Source: Acidobacteriota bacterium
GTDB lineage: Bacteria > Acidobacteriota > Vicinamibacteria > Vicinamibacterales > UBA2999
DNA length: 40,250 nucleotides
Assembly: GCA_023265015.1 (NCBI GenBank)
Contig: JAHFUO010000018.1
Span: 1 to 40,250 of the forward strand
Reading direction: 5' to 3'
Positions 10,564-15,542 of this stretch are shown here, piece by piece. Made by a program: the position numbers and the translations under genes. The first letter of the stretch is position 1; every line of letters begins with the position of its first letter. The notes beneath the pieces are model-generated. The model saw only the letters and a program-made list of their open reading frames with translations, was not told the DNA's origin and made no database searches.

Positions 10564-10628
10564 GCAGACCCGTGTGACATGGGTGTTTTCCGTTGGGAAA
10601 CAGCAGGACGGGCGAGCCGATTCCGGCT

Positions 10629-10675: not shown

Positions 10676-12727
10676 ATGCACGTGATCGTCCCCGCCGAGC
10701 TCAAGCCGGGCGTGAGGATTGACGACCTGCCGGCGGAGACATCGCCAGGCAGCGCCGCATTGCCAGGCGGGCGCGTCATTCGCGGGAAGGCGCTGATCTT
10801 CTGGGACCCCAAGCTCGCCGGCACGAAGTACGGGAAGAAGCTCGATGCGATCGACACCGATCAGATCACGCCCGCCGCCGATTGCGTGTCCGAGAGCCTC
10901 GAGACGCTCGACGAGCGCTGGAAGGCCGGATCGTTCCGCTACCTGATGCCGGACTTCCGCCGGCGAGTCCATCGCGGAGAGACATTCATCATCGCCGGGG
11001 ATCGATTCGCGATCGGCTCGTCGCGCGAGATGAGCCCCGCGGGGCTCAGGGGCGTCGCCGAGGAGGCGGGGCTCGAGATGGTGATCGTCTGCGGCAGCGG
11101 CATCGGCGACATCTTCCGCCGCAACGCCTTGAACCTCGGGCTGCAGGTCGCGCAGAGTCCGGAGGCGGTGGCGGACGCGAAGGACGGCGACGAGTTCGAG
11201 TTCGATCCGGTGTCGCGGCGCCTGTCCAACCGTACGCAGGGCAAGACGTACGAGCCTGTGCCGATCACGCCGAAGGAGGACGAGATCCGGCAGCGCGGCG
11301 GGATCGTTGCCATCGGCCGCCGCGAGTTCCGCGCGTCGGTGGCGCGCCGGCCGCGCATCGAATTCCCGGGTGAAGCGCTCGCGCGCAACATGACCACGAC
11401 CGAGCAGATCATCTGGGCGCATCGCGTGGACACGGATCGACGCGAGCTGCAGCCCGGCGACACGCTTCGCGTCCATGCGGATCTGCTTCCCGCCTCGGAC
11501 GGCACCGCGCCCTTCGCGATTCACACCTTCAACCAGATCACCGGCGGCAACACGATCTATCCGCGGCAGGCGGCGATTGCCAACGATCACTTCGTGTTCA
11601 CCGGCCGCGAAGACGACGAGCGGCAGACGAGCATCGGGCGCGCCTTCGCACAGGAGCAGCGGCTCGAGAAGCCGTACTACGCCACGCCGGGCGACGGCAT
11701 CTTCCATTTCTATTTTCCCGAGCAGGGGCTCGTCGTCCCCGGGCAGTTCATTCCGGGCGCCGACTCCCACAGCCGCGCGTACGGCGCCTACGGCGCCGTG
11801 GGCATGGGCGTCGGCTCGACCACGCTGGGCTTCGGATGGGCGACCGGCTGCGTCTACGTCACGCTCGCGCAGGCGCGGCGCGTCTCCTTCACCGGCGCGC
11901 TGCAGCCGTGGGTGAGCGGCAAGGACATCGTGCTCGAGCTGCTGCGCCGGTGGGGCGCGAGGCAGTCGCAGGGGATGTCGGTGGAATTCGTCGACGCGAA
12001 TCGACAACTGCCGATCGCCTATCGCAACACGATCGCGAACATGATGGCGGAGGCCGAGGCGCCCAACGGGATTTTTGCCGCCGACGCTGTGACGTACGCG
12101 TGGTACGAGGCGAAGGGCGTGCGCGATCTTCCGTATCCGCGCATCGCGCCAGGCGCAAGCGCGCGCTACGAGATCGACGAAGAGCTGTCGCTGGCGGGCG
12201 TGCAGCCGATGATCGCGAAGCCGTTCAGCCCGGGCAACGCGTATCCCGCCGACGAGGTCGCGCGCGAGCGGATCCAGTTCGACAAGGCGCTGATTGGATC
12301 CTGCACGAACGGCAGCTACGCCGACCTGCTGCAGGCGGCGCTCGTCATCTACCACGCGCGCCGGCAGGGCATCCGCAGGACCGCGCGGCCGTTGGTCGTC
12401 TTCCCCGGATCGGGAGGCGTCGGGACGCAGATCGAGCGGCCCGACCCGCGGCTCGGCGGCGAGTCGATCGCGGGCGTCTTCCGGTCGGTCGGCGGCGAGA
12501 TTCGCGCGTCGTGGTGCGGTCCCTGTTTCGGCCAGGGGCCGGATGCGCTGACCAGGGGCCAGCGCGCGATCACGTCGTTCAACCGGAACTGGCAGAACCG
12601 CATGGGCGTAGGGGGCGAAGGCTACCTGGCCAGCCCGGCCGTCGTGGCGGCGTCGGCGCTGGCCGGATACATGGCCCCGCCCTCCGAGCTCGGCCTGAAA
12701 TGGGACCCCGAGGAGTTCGGGATTTAG
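10676..12727 (+). CDS. Aconitase-family hydratase with swivel domain first (LeuD-LeuC order)
   Basis: Predicted 683-aa Fe-S dehydratase of the aconitase / isopropylmalate isomerase superfamily. The small swivel (LeuD-like) domain comes first, with GDRFAIGSSREMSPAGLRGV (GSSRE from residue 114). The three-domain catalytic (LeuC-like) part follows, with PGDGIFHFYFPEQG, GADSHSRAYGAYG and the three 4Fe-4S cysteines: C543 in GSCTNGSY, and C614 and C617 in WCGPCFG. AcnA and IRP1 have the swivel last. AcnB has it before the catalytic part but with an extra N-terminal HEAT-like domain, which is missing here. The start is the ATG at 10676 (MHVIVPAELKPGVRIDDL). The substrate could be citrate, homocitrate, isopropylmalate or methylcitrate and is not decided by sequence. 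It stands alone, with no leuB or prp genes beside it. Confidence 0.85.
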   Translation: MHVIVPAELKPGVRIDDLPAETSPGSAALPGGRVIRGKALIFWDPKLAGTKYGKKLDAIDTDQITPAADCVSESLETLDERWKAGSFRYLMPDFRRRVHRGETFIIAGDRFAIGSSREMSPAGLRGVAEEAGLEMVIVCGSGIGDIFRRNALNLGLQVAQSPEAVADAKDGDEFEFDPVSRRLSNRTQGKTYEPVPITPKEDEIRQRGGIVAIGRREFRASVARRPRIEFPGEALARNMTTTEQIIWAHRVDTDRRELQPGDTLRVHADLLPASDGTAPFAIHTFNQITGGNTIYPRQAAIANDHFVFTGREDDERQTSIGRAFAQEQRLEKPYYATPGDGIFHFYFPEQGLVVPGQFIPGADSHSRAYGAYGAVGMGVGSTTLGFGWATGCVYVTLAQARRVSFTGALQPWVSGKDIVLELLRRWGARQSQGMSVEFVDANRQLPIAYRNTIANMMAEAEAPNGIFAADAVTYAWYEAKGVRDLPYPRIAPGASARYEIDEELSLAGVQPMIAKPFSPGNAYPADEVARERIQFDKALIGSCTNGSYADLLQAALVIYHARRQGIRRTARPLVVFPGSGGVGTQIERPDPRLGGESIAGVFRSVGGEIRASWCGPCFGQGPDALTRGQRAITSFNRNWQNRMGVGGEGYLASPAVVAASALAGYMAPPSELGLKWDPEEFGI

Positions 12728-12743: not shown

Positions 12744-15542
12744 ATGCCTTCTCTAACCACGAAGTTTCGAAGGACACGAAACTACGGAATCTTCGTGAAC
12801 TTCGCGGCTTCGTGGTTGCTTGCCGCTGCCTCGGTCGCCGCGCAGACTGCTCAGGCGCAGGGCGATCCGCAGCAGCCCACCTTCCGCACCGGCGTCGACG
12901 TCGTCACGGTTGACGTCGGCGTGATCGACGGCAGGGGGCAGCCGGTCACCGACCTGCACGCGCCGGAATTCACGGTCAAGATCGACGGGAAAGAGCGGCG
13001 CGTGATCACCGCCGACCTGGTGAAGTACGCCTATACCCCGGACCCGATCATCCGCCCCCGGCCGCAGAAGCAGGATTCGTTCGAGACGCTCTACACGACC
13101 AACATCACGCAGCCTGAAGGCCGCATGATCATGATCGCGGTCGATCAGATGAACATCCGGCCGGGCGCGGCGCGCCCGATCCTGGACGCCGCATCCAGGT
13201 TCCTCGATCGTCTCAACCCAGCCGACCGGGTCGCGTTCGTGTCGTTCCCCGAGCCGGGCGTCGTCGTCGATTTCACCGGCGACCGCCAGCGCATCCGCCT
13301 TGCGATGCAGAGGGTGATCGGCACGCAGTCGCGCTTCGTCGGCCGCCGCAACATCGGCCTCGTCGAGGCGATCGACATCGCGCAGAAGGGCGACGATCGC
13401 CGGCTGCTCGAGGTCGTGAACCGCGAGTGCCGCGGCCTGCTCGACATGGCGCTCGACCAATGCCAGCGCGACATCGTCGACGAATCGAACTCGATCCTGT
13501 GGACCACGCGGCGCGACGCCGAGGCATCGCTGCGCGGCCTGCGGGAATGGATGCAGCACCTTGGCGAGACCGAGGGGCAGAAGACGCTGATCCTCCTGTC
13601 CGAGGGGTTGGTCACCGACACGCCGGCCGACCTCGAGGATGTCGTGCGGACGGCGATGCGCGGGCGGGTCTCGGTGAACGTGCTGCTGATGGACGTGCCG
13701 CGGTCGGACGCCACGCAGGGGCCGCTGCCGCCGACCTTCACCGAGGATCGCGAGCTCGAGGTCCGCGGCCTCAACGACATGGCGTCGCTCACCCGCGGAT
13801 CGATCTTCCAGGTGGTCGGCACCGCCGACCGCGCATTCGAGCGGCTCGCGTCGGAGATCTCCGCCTACTACCTGCTCAGTGTCGAAGAGGCGCCGAGCGA
13901 TCGCGACGGCCGCAATCACCGCATCGACGTCTCGGTGCGCCGCAACAACGTCCAGCTGCGATCGCGGCAGGCCTTTGTCGTCGATTCGCTGGGCCGCAAC
14001 AGGCCGCCTGACGCCGCGCTGCTCGATTCGCTGCGCTCACCCCTGGGCGTGCCGGGCGTGCCGCTGCGGTTGACGACGTTCGCCTACCAGGATCCGAAGG
14101 GCGAAAAGGTCAGGGTGATGATGGCGGCCGACGTGGGCCAGGCGGGCGCGCAGCCGGCCGAGTACACGATGGGCTACGTCGTCATCGACAGCGACGGACG
14201 CGCGGTCGCCGGGAGCAGCGACAAGATGAAGCTGTCGCCGCTCGAGGGGCGCACGAACGCGTCGCTGTCGTATCTCGGGTACGTGACGCTCGATCCCGGC
14301 ATCTACGAGCTGCGGCTCGCGGCCGTCGACGCGGAAGGGCGGCACGGCAGCGTCGTCCGCGAGATCAACGCGTGGAAGATGGCGGGCGAGGAGTTCACCT
14401 ACGCGGACCTCGTCGTCAATCACGCGTCCACGGCGGCGGACGGGCTGCGGCCCGATGTCGAGCCGCACGTCGATCCCGACGGCCTCGCGGCGTACGTCGA
14501 GTTGTACGCGGCGTCTGCGGAGACCTATAAGGACGTGTCGGTGACGTTCGAGATCGCCGACGACCAGGATGCGCCCGCGCTCATCGCGGTGCCGGTGACG
14601 TTGCGGGCGTCGACGCGGGACACGTGGCGCATCGCGCAGGGATTCATCGGTGCGGAGCCGCTGCCGGCGGGCCGATACATCGCGCGCGCGCGCATCATGC
14701 GCGGGGAGAAGCTGGCCGGCGTGCTCGTGCGGCCGTTCGTCCTCGAGCCGGCTCCCGCGTCGAAGGGCGGACCGATTCTCATCCCTGCGGGCTTCGCGCG
14801 TCTCACGGCGTTCGATCGCACGGCGGTGCTGCAGCCAGCGCTCGTAAAGGACATGCTGGATTCGATGGCGGCGAGATCGCCGTCGCTGAACGACTCGATG
14901 ACCGAGGCGCGCGCCGGACGCTACGGTCCCGCGGCGCTCGAGGCGCTGACGGCCGGCGATCAGCAGGTGGCCGCGTTCCTCAAGGGGCTCGACCTCTACA
15001 GCAAGGGACAGATCGATCAGGCCGCCACGCAGCTCGCCATCGCCTCTGGTCCGCGCAGGGAGTTCTTCCCGGCGGCGTTTCTGCTTGGCGCGTGCTTCGC
15101 CGCCGGCGGGCGCGATCGCGATGCGGCCGGCGTCTGGCAGCTTGCGCTCGGCAACGAGCCGCGCCCGCCGATCGCGTACACGCTGCTCGCGGACGCACGG
15201 CTCCGCGAGGGGCAGTTCGACGCGGTCATCACGGTCCTGAAGCCGGAGCACGAACAGCGTCCGGCGGATGACGACGTGTCCAGGCGCCTGGCGATCGCCT
15301 ACATGATGACCGGCGCGTACACCGCCGCGCTTCCCATCCTCGACACCTACCTCACGCGTCACGCGACCGATGCCGACGCGCTGTTCGCCGCCGTGCTGTC
15401 TCAGTACCAGGCCACGACGGCCGCCGGCGTGGCGATGTCGGCCGCGGACCTCGCGAAGGTCACGAAATACGTGAAAGCCTACCGAGGTCCTCAACAGGCA
15501 CTCGTGGCCAAGTACCTCTCGTCGATGGGGGTGGCGCGATAG
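12744..15542 (+). CDS. Large secreted VWFA-related protein with C-terminal TPR-like region
   Basis: Predicted 932-aa exported protein. An atypical leader (LTTKFRRTRNY, then GIFVNFAASWLLAAASVAAQ) is followed by the family-typical opening FRTGVDVVTVDVGVIDG. The VWA-like domain spans about residues 120-370. Its MIDAS is degenerate: D-Q-M-N-I replaces DxSxS in MIMIAVDQMNI, and LILLSEGL stands where the TDG loop would be. The middle section holds beta-sandwich repeats. The C-terminal 200 residues are helical and TPR-like, for example AFLKGLDLYSKGQIDQAATQ and AYTLLADARLREGQFDAVI. The start is the ATG at 12744, 16 bp after the aconitase-family gene. The region coding residues about 4-25 lies in a family A repeat. 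Function unknown; likely envelope protein interactions. Confidence 0.82.
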   Translation: MPSLTTKFRRTRNYGIFVNFAASWLLAAASVAAQTAQAQGDPQQPTFRTGVDVVTVDVGVIDGRGQPVTDLHAPEFTVKIDGKERRVITADLVKYAYTPDPIIRPRPQKQDSFETLYTTNITQPEGRMIMIAVDQMNIRPGAARPILDAASRFLDRLNPADRVAFVSFPEPGVVVDFTGDRQRIRLAMQRVIGTQSRFVGRRNIGLVEAIDIAQKGDDRRLLEVVNRECRGLLDMALDQCQRDIVDESNSILWTTRRDAEASLRGLREWMQHLGETEGQKTLILLSEGLVTDTPADLEDVVRTAMRGRVSVNVLLMDVPRSDATQGPLPPTFTEDRELEVRGLNDMASLTRGSIFQVVGTADRAFERLASEISAYYLLSVEEAPSDRDGRNHRIDVSVRRNNVQLRSRQAFVVDSLGRNRPPDAALLDSLRSPLGVPGVPLRLTTFAYQDPKGEKVRVMMAADVGQAGAQPAEYTMGYVVIDSDGRAVAGSSDKMKLSPLEGRTNASLSYLGYVTLDPGIYELRLAAVDAEGRHGSVVREINAWKMAGEEFTYADLVVNHASTAADGLRPDVEPHVDPDGLAAYVELYAASAETYKDVSVTFEIADDQDAPALIAVPVTLRASTRDTWRIAQGFIGAEPLPAGRYIARARIMRGEKLAGVLVRPFVLEPAPASKGGPILIPAGFARLTAFDRTAVLQPALVKDMLDSMAARSPSLNDSMTEARAGRYGPAALEALTAGDQQVAAFLKGLDLYSKGQIDQAATQLAIASGPRREFFPAAFLLGACFAAGGRDRDAAGVWQLALGNEPRPPIAYTLLADARLREGQFDAVITVLKPEHEQRPADDDVSRRLAIAYMMTGAYTAALPILDTYLTRHATDADALFAAVLSQYQATTAAGVAMSAADLAKVTKYVKAYRGPQQALVAKYLSSMGVAR
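12755..12823. repeat. Family A hairpin inside the 5' end of a coding gene
   Basis: AACCACGAAG at 12755-12764 is complementary to CTTCGTGGTT at 12808-12817. Between them lie CGAAGGACACGAA and CTTCGTGAACTTCGCGG words, as in the intergenic copies. The element starts 11 bp into the VWFA/TPR gene and encodes roughly residues 4-26 of its leader. Confidence 0.8.

Follow-up and report, generated by a model that had tools for sequence, protein, structure and literature searches.

A swivel-first, HEAT-less enzyme of the aconitase superfamily in Acidobacteriota, possibly the isomerase of a 2-oxoacid elongation module

The gene and its domain layout

We analysed a 40,250-nucleotide stretch of DNA from an Acidobacteriota bacterium (assembly GCA_023265015.1, contig JAHFUO010000018.1, positions 1 to 40,250; in the following the window) and in particular one gene in it, which encodes a protein of the aconitase superfamily with a LeuD-like swivel domain ahead of a LeuC-like catalytic core (Table 1). 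The longer mechanical open reading frame that contains this gene has its 5' end at a GTG at position 10574. We prefer the downstream ATG because many homologues align from its first residue. The gene is flanked upstream by PPK1 on the opposite strand and downstream by a VWFA-domain/TPR protein; no leu, prp or tricarboxylic acid (TCA) cycle gene stands beside it in the window, as a preliminary description of the locus had stated.

Table 1. Positions of the features described in the text. Coordinates refer to the window; locus handles are given where the feature lies in other genomes.
Feature	Position	Strand	Remarks
Window enzyme gene (swivel-first, HEAT-less, aconitase superfamily; predicted [4Fe-4S] hydro-lyase/isomerase)	10676..12727	+	ATG start, TAG stop, 683 amino acids, domain order 4-1-2-3
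LeuD-like swivel domain, N-terminal	10775..11350	+	about residues 34-225; from TIGR02087, PDB alignments to LeuD/HacB subunits, VIA-align and invariance
LeuC-like catalytic core, C-terminal	11387..12694	+	about residues 238-673; from PF00330 and VIA-align; holds C543, C614 and C617
VWFA-domain/TPR protein, acidobacterial (TIGR03436)	12744..15542	+	932 amino acids; 16 bases after the enzyme stop; neighbour only, no functional link shown
c16 loci beside citrate synthase, window's order	L101, L102, L104-L106, L123, L124, L128, L166, L167

The LeuD-type model TIGR02087 (NCBIfam) covers residues 57-215 and the Aconitase model PF00330 (Pfam) residues 268-664, the latter with 246.1 bits against a gathering score of 28.7. 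The swivel therefore precedes the core within a single chain, which agrees with the order given in the preliminary description. LeuC-type NCBIfam models span about residues 239-671, and a sub-threshold match to Aconitase_C (PF00694) was found at residues 96-156. PF00330 was matched by all 30 orthologues; at E<=0.01 only PF00330 and PF00694 were found in them, and none of the 30 matched a HEAT, AcnB-N or AcnX model.

Residues 59-73 form the substrate-recognition loop of the swivel, IDTDQITPAADCVSE, and residues 114-118 its GSSRE loop. The three Fe-S cysteines of the core and S115, S116 and R117 of the GSSRE loop, all of which had been recognised before, proved invariant in 30/30 orthologues. 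The same holds for D304, H305, H344, D363, S364, H365, N455, E459, N636, R637 and R642. The invariant core positions align with active-site residues of m-aconitase, whose catalytic roles we presume to carry over to the core of the window enzyme. A chance reading frame is ruled out by 29 full-length orthologues and one partial orthologue in 59 related genomes including the window's own. Judged from its residues and its predicted fold, the gene product appears to be an intact member of the aconitase family of iron-sulfur enzymes, with a putative cluster and a putative activity.

Predicted fold and relation to characterised families

An AlphaFold model of the window enzyme, built on a 30-row alignment, reached a mean predicted local distance difference test (pLDDT) score of 75.3 and a predicted template modelling (pTM) score of 0.76; residues 271-350 had block-mean pLDDT values of 39-65. 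The VIA-align list consisted of Foldseek's 1000 best chains. By profile and by core fold the closest characterised enzymes were the LeuC/LeuD isopropylmalate (IPM) isomerase and the archaeal homoaconitase HacA/HacB. The model core matched the large subunits of IPM isomerase (4kp1, Z 38.9) and homoaconitase (4kp2, Z 37.5), while the swivel matched small subunits of the LeuD type (2pkp, Z 13.3; 3vba, Z 13.1). The best profile scores within NCBIfam were 289.7 bits for NF001614, 260.3 for TIGR02083 and 249.6 for TIGR01343. Curated cut-offs were missed by the LeuC/LeuD models (TIGR02083 260.3 of 610.65, TIGR00170 142.3 of 560.25, TIGR02084 59.1 of 245.85), the homoaconitase models (NF040615 204.1 of 550, NF040604 40.2 of 230) and the AcnA/AcnD models (TIGR01341 46.4 of 945, TIGR02333 42.4 of 1419.85). 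With LeuCD and HacAB the window enzyme shares the catalytic residues, and its relatives adjoin LeuA-like and LeuB-like genes. It differs from both in being one chain with the swivel first, in remaining under all curated cut-offs and in forming a separate clade. Unlike LeuCD it is neither split into two subunits nor located in a leu operon, and unlike HacAB it has no Arg at the position of R26 in the recognition loop of MJ HacB, which corresponds to V71.

The model as a whole also matched AcnB from E. coli (1l5j; Z 30.2, root mean square deviation 4.1, 577 aligned residues). Model residues 22-683 were placed on chain residues 154-841, such that the alignment covers AcnB solely from residue 154 onward. 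AcnB carries the swivel ahead of the core in one chain as well, but it has a HEAT domain and about 860 amino acids. In the model the window protein is thus arranged like AcnB minus the HEAT domain, yet its sequence is nearer to LeuC/HacA: AcnB models reached merely 52-75 bits compared to 250-290 bits for the best LeuC/HacA models. These low scores and the lack of any AcnB-N or HEAT match in the 30 orthologues rule out an assignment to AcnB itself.

The whole-chain match would suit an aconitase or 2-methylisocitrate dehydratase isozyme serving the TCA, glyoxylate or methylcitrate cycle, i.e. an AcnB equivalent that lacks the HEAT domain. The core also scores 240 bits with NF005558, a model for single-chain aconitate hydratases, which argues in the same direction, though the cut-off of this model is 612. 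Such a role is opposed by the AcnB scores and by the aconitases already present in the bearers. The window's genome (G000; 3.18 Mb, 92.3% complete) holds two AcnA-type aconitases and a LeuC elsewhere, such that the window enzyme is not the sole candidate there for either aconitase or IPM isomerase. An AcnA-sized match was also found in G074, G076, G132 and G210.

AcnA and AcnD have the core first and the swivel last, opposite to the window enzyme. The reverse order is also found in core-first single-chain aconitases of about 650 amino acids (Ilyobacter, G066, G075, G082), which combine the same two domains at a similar length and lie on other tree branches than the window clade. AcnX Type-I resembles the window enzyme in its published order 4-linker-1-2-3 without HEAT domain (consulted part of PMC8184944). 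It differs in that the window enzyme carries the full three-cysteine set, and the AcnX structure 7cnq matched the model only loosely (Z 15.6, root mean square deviation 6.4, 450 aligned residues). Profile scores and 0/30 orthologues with a match to AcnX in Pfam rule out that the window protein is an AcnX.

Phylogeny of swivel-first proteins

The domain order had been described as different from that of AcnA and AcnB. This is correct insofar as AcnA has the opposite order and AcnB a HEAT domain, but the order in itself is not new. In the consulted part of PMC8184944, domain 4 is N-terminal (4-linker-1-2-3) in AcnB, AcnX Type-I and fungal IPM isomerase. A tblastn search of plasmids additionally yielded swivel-first 'aconitase family' proteins in Streptomyces, Burkholderiales, Roseomonas and others. 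All nine plasmid-borne proteins of 649-665 amino acids that were checked from these three groups were swivel-first. An unprecedented domain order is ruled out by these published and plasmid-borne examples. The plasmid proteins, including that of Streptomyces sp. KN37, have the same order and a similar length as the window enzyme, but share only about 28-31% identity with it.

The concatenated tree comprised 49 rows, among them 18 rows of the window clade and 9 swivel-first rows from Streptomyces and proteobacteria. AcnB, YbhJ and the CD pair G050C4 were left out for their long branches, L100 as a partial frame and two PDB rows for want of a swivel row. The window clade was recovered with 100/100 support on a stem of 3.2 changes per site, and the plasmid swivel-first group likewise with 100/100, apart from it. 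A tree constrained to unite the 27 swivel-first rows is worse by 1.35 log-likelihood units (p-AU 0.475), such that by this comparison a single origin of both groups is neither rejected nor shown. An earlier tree had joined the window clade to YbhJ, a grouping for which the program warned of a long-branch artefact. The window clade falls outside every sampled family, and the window protein does not group inside any sampled characterised one (with AcnB dropped from the concatenated tree). On sequence grounds it represents a new subfamily within the aconitase superfamily, with a domain order that is uncommon but already known.

In the open-licence literature, including the consulted parts of PMC11237513 and PMC11085741, no characterised member or named product of the clade was found; in the consulted part of PMC11085741, the paper on strain KN37, the terms 'aconitase' and 'crotonyl' have 0 occurrences. 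Where relatives carry an annotation at all, it reads just 'aconitase family protein' or '3-isopropylmalate dehydratase', and such names would pass into metabolic models built for uncultured Acidobacteriota and Chloroflexota. The clade also lends itself to comparative work on how the swivel domain reached the N-terminus in aconitase-family enzymes.

Distribution and association with a LeuA-like synthase

As related loci we took the best 80 of 179, to which all counts of named loci refer. Over the best segment these 80 are 69-86% identical to the window enzyme. They are labelled Acidobacteriota (51), Chloroflexota (15), Eiseniibacteriota (8), Actinomycetota (2), Cyanobacteriota (1) and Krumholzibacteriota (1), with two unlabelled; some of these labels are probably due to misbinning. 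Within the phylum an orthologue was found in 22 of 198 genomes (E<=1e-100). The sequence of the enzyme is tightly conserved and its distribution, as judged from these matches, patchy.

The clustering of genes around the enzyme drew on 97 stretches, of which 79 come from the 80 named loci and 18 from elsewhere, with the window's own gene included four times; most clusters were judged by eye. Two of them are central in the following: c16, a LeuA-like synthase of roughly 400 amino acids without regulatory domain, and c20, a LeuB-like dehydrogenase. Enzyme and c16 co-occur. Among 59 genomes 25 carry both, 5 the enzyme only (G000, G016, G024, G025, G028), 2 c16 only (G006, G056) and 27 neither (Fisher p 1.2e-9). 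For the 36 genomes of the window's family the corresponding numbers are 16, 5, 1 and 14 (p 3.6e-5). In the 198 phylum genomes the enzyme was found in 22, c16 in 73 (E<=1e-70) and both in 21 (p 1.6e-9), where the counts for enzyme and c16 come from two draws of the same size and, as far as listed, with the same handles. The p-values are uncorrected for relatedness between genomes, and the samples overlap. The sole exception among the 22 bearers is the window's genome; the other two genomes of its genus carry both genes. The link is one-sided: the enzyme is nearly always accompanied by c16, but not the reverse.

Partner genes at the loci of relatives

At the Chloroflexota loci c16 lies within the fetched stretch in 9 of 15 cases (L100 left out of the scan) and c20 in 5 of 15, to which L100 adds one by clustering. 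Where c16 is present, its edge is separated from that of the enzyme gene by <20 bases to 3.1 kb; its stop lies about 20 bases or less from the enzyme start in L069 and L075. A 4-base overlap joins the c20 gene to the enzyme gene in L091, L093 and L099. In L099 c16 closes a series of genes for 2-oxoacid dehydrogenase E1 and E2, on the strand opposite to the enzyme.

A homologous arrangement occurs on a 578-kb plasmid of Streptomyces sp. KN37 (L129:11953-16221). There an overlapping trio encodes a LeuA-family protein (43% identical to c16), a swivel-first aconitase-family protein (28% to the window protein) and a protein of the isocitrate/isopropylmalate dehydrogenase family (36-41% to c20). The run around the trio holds genes for nonribosomal peptide synthetase/polyketide synthase (NRPS/PKS), two crotonyl-CoA carboxylase/reductases, fatty acyl-AMP ligase and beta-ketoacyl-ACP (acyl carrier protein) synthase III. 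In a 16-row tree, in which NifV was flagged as a possible long-branch artefact, a 100/100 branch parts c16 and the Streptomyces LeuA-like protein from the LeuA, CimA and NifV references.

Thiolase and enoyl-CoA hydratase genes accompany c16 or c20 in Eiseniibacteriota and some Acidobacteriota, an assignment that was checked by Pfam in L178 only. Such genes were seen in L178 (9909-12005), L179 (10045-12070), L111 and L119, which belong to distant lineages and in part to genomes without the window enzyme. L178 and L179 belong to such enzyme-free genomes and have the two genes beside c16; in L177 an IsoDH gene overlaps c16. No aconitase-type motif that could mark an alternative isomerase was found in 16 c16 stretches from 15 enzyme-free genomes, which were read by gene caller and motif within about 5.5 kb of the centre where c16 was found (the motif missed c16 in L180 and L181). 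Genome G000 contains two IsoDH genes (C117, C67; tartrate-dehydrogenase-like by eye) that lie near c20 in the tree on a branch of their own, and G012, which has no window enzyme, contains four. From the IsoDH genes of these two genomes a vicinamibacterial LeuB-like partner was not assigned.

Substrate and proposed role

The recognition loop of the swivel sets the substrate preference according to the consulted part of PMC7308503. V71 of this loop is invariant in 30/30 orthologues. Its counterpart in the alignment is V28 in the small subunit of MJ IPM isomerase and R26 in that of MJ homoaconitase. The latter residue, as we take it, reads the distal carboxylate. The substrate helix of c20 is hydrophobic and LeuB-like, without the Ser/Asn pattern that characterises the substrate helix of isocitrate dehydrogenase. 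Together the two features weakly suggest a neutral (alkyl) side group on the substrate rather than a distal carboxylate.

The same evidence bears on a role of the homoaconitase type, for which c16 would make homocitrate from 2-oxoglutarate and the window enzyme and c20 would carry it on to 2-oxoadipate. For this role speak the scores of c16 with homocitrate synthase models, 185-189 bits compared to 197 bits for the best IPM synthase model, and the structural proximity of the core to MJ homoaconitase; the thiolase and enoyl-CoA hydratase genes beside c16 would suit a breakdown of glutaryl-CoA. With V71 invariant at the R26 position, no charged pattern in the c20 helix and all scores far under the curated cut-offs, we hold it to be distinctly unlikely.

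Given the LeuA-like and LeuB-like partners, the enzyme might also be a second isopropylmalate or citramalate isomerase for branched-chain amino acid synthesis. Seven of ten bearers (G112, G132, G159, G183, G197, G204, G210) have no LeuC-sized and no canonical LeuA match, and IlvC is present in G074, G075, G080 and G081. In G132, which is a single contig and 99% complete, the aconitase family consists of an AcnA-sized protein and the window-type enzyme alone, and c16 is the sole HMGL-like match; G159 and G183 have a further aconitase-family match of another size. On the other side, G000, G048, G099 and G227 possess canonical LeuA and LeuC besides the window-type enzyme, and no IlvC match was found in the bearers G076, G077, G078, G079 and G082 (completeness not given). 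G076 combines the enzyme, c16 and a c20-like gene with no match for LeuC, canonical LeuA or IlvC. Moreover, LeuCD takes citramalate in known pathways. Branched-chain synthesis genes thus accompany the enzyme in some bearers and not in others. This rules out leucine or branched-chain synthesis as its general role, which we consider very unlikely also in the form of a second isomerase, although some bearers may still use it so.

With the anatomy, conservation, separate clade and association with c16 as observed above, we lean towards the view that the window enzyme serves as isomerase in a 2-oxoacid elongation module that is separate from leucine biosynthesis, perhaps acting on a neutral 2-alkylmalate; substrate, enzymatic steps and product are what we infer. 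In this module c16 would condense acetyl-CoA with a 2-oxoacid to a 2-substituted malate. The window enzyme would catalyse the middle of the three steps, isomerising this malate as a single-chain [4Fe-4S] isomerase that shifts the hydroxyl between adjacent carbons via dehydration and rehydration, presumably with the N-terminal swivel closing over the core that carries the cluster. Oxidative decarboxylation of the product by c20 would then yield a 2-oxoacid extended by one carbon, from which a 2-oxoacid dehydrogenase complex may form an acyl-CoA. The choice of substrates, left open in the preliminary description, is narrowed by the LeuA-like and LeuB-like genes at orthologues and at a distant homologue and by the co-occurrence with c16.

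A wider version of this proposal we advance tentatively, with somewhat less than even confidence. It would be a conserved non-leucine 2-oxoacid elongation pathway, undescribed as far as our searches reached, that is shared by Acidobacteriota, Eiseniibacteriota, Krumholzibacteriota and Chloroflexota and has dedicated families of synthase (c16) and swivel-first isomerase together with a LeuB-like dehydrogenase. It would feed acyl-CoA metabolism via 2-oxoacid dehydrogenase, while the homologous Streptomyces trio would make an unusual building block in a PKS/NRPS cluster. If the module exists, Acidobacteriota and Chloroflexota own a chain-elongation route beside leucine biosynthesis.

A number of observations weigh against the elongation module, besides the limits of the p-values given above. 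In the window's genome itself c16 was not found; presumably it is missing, lost or unassembled there. The enzyme is absent from 52 of the 73 c16-bearing phylum genomes, and therefore c16 can act with something else. Outside Chloroflexota the c16/c20 motif was found in 0 of 65 named loci, in fetched stretches of variable length. The KN37 enzyme is merely 28% identical to the window protein and belongs to the other clade. The V71 argument is weakened by AcnB, which presumably has no Arg at this position either. The genome G008, 100% complete with LeuA and LeuC present, is also without IlvC match, so that the absence of IlvC is a weak test and a missing match can mislead. No biochemistry was found for enzymes of the window clade. 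Finally, among 18 genomes checked from the window's order, 10 have c16 beside a citrate synthase gene, at 0.2-1.5 kb in nine of them and at 8.5 kb in the tenth; some of the remaining c16 stretches are short or lie at a contig end. In the Chloroflexota locus L087 the enzyme gene, its frame interrupted by one stop, directly follows an isocitrate-lyase-like gene. Both settings fit a tricarboxylate substrate.

These last two settings, and an isocitrate-dehydrogenase-like gene about 4 kb from c16 in G074, are also what a HEAT-less aconitase isozyme would lead one to expect. Its conflict with the AcnB scores and with the further aconitases was described above; in addition, c16 would duplicate citrate synthase, which is present in 24 of 25 genomes. 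We regard the isozyme as rather unlikely.

Two of the distant plasmid loci show a different environment. In L130 and L136 (Caballeronia and Paraburkholderia) the swivel-first aconitase-family gene is accompanied by a CaiB/BaiF CoA-transferase and an HMG-CoA-lyase-like gene, a set that suggests the breakdown of a citramalate-like acid. Other proteobacterial relatives stand with tricarboxylate transporter genes. By analogy the window enzyme could be a catabolic hydratase, e.g. for citraconate, mesaconate or dimethylmalate. The window clade is separate on its long stem, and no genes of this kind stood out among the neighbours that recur in it, most of which were judged by eye, such that we give this role hardly any probability.

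Recurring neighbours and unusual frames

Of the 80 named loci 8 contain the cluster of the VWFA/TPR protein, as do five loci from related genomes. A small ApaG-like protein (cluster c1, by eye) adjoins the enzyme gene divergently in 18 of the 80 named loci, at a median of 143 bases upstream. Unusually long open frames of 1417-1579 amino acids, with the aconitase match in two stretches, were seen in G079:C82, G080:C129, G068:C25, G072:C32 and G073:C158.

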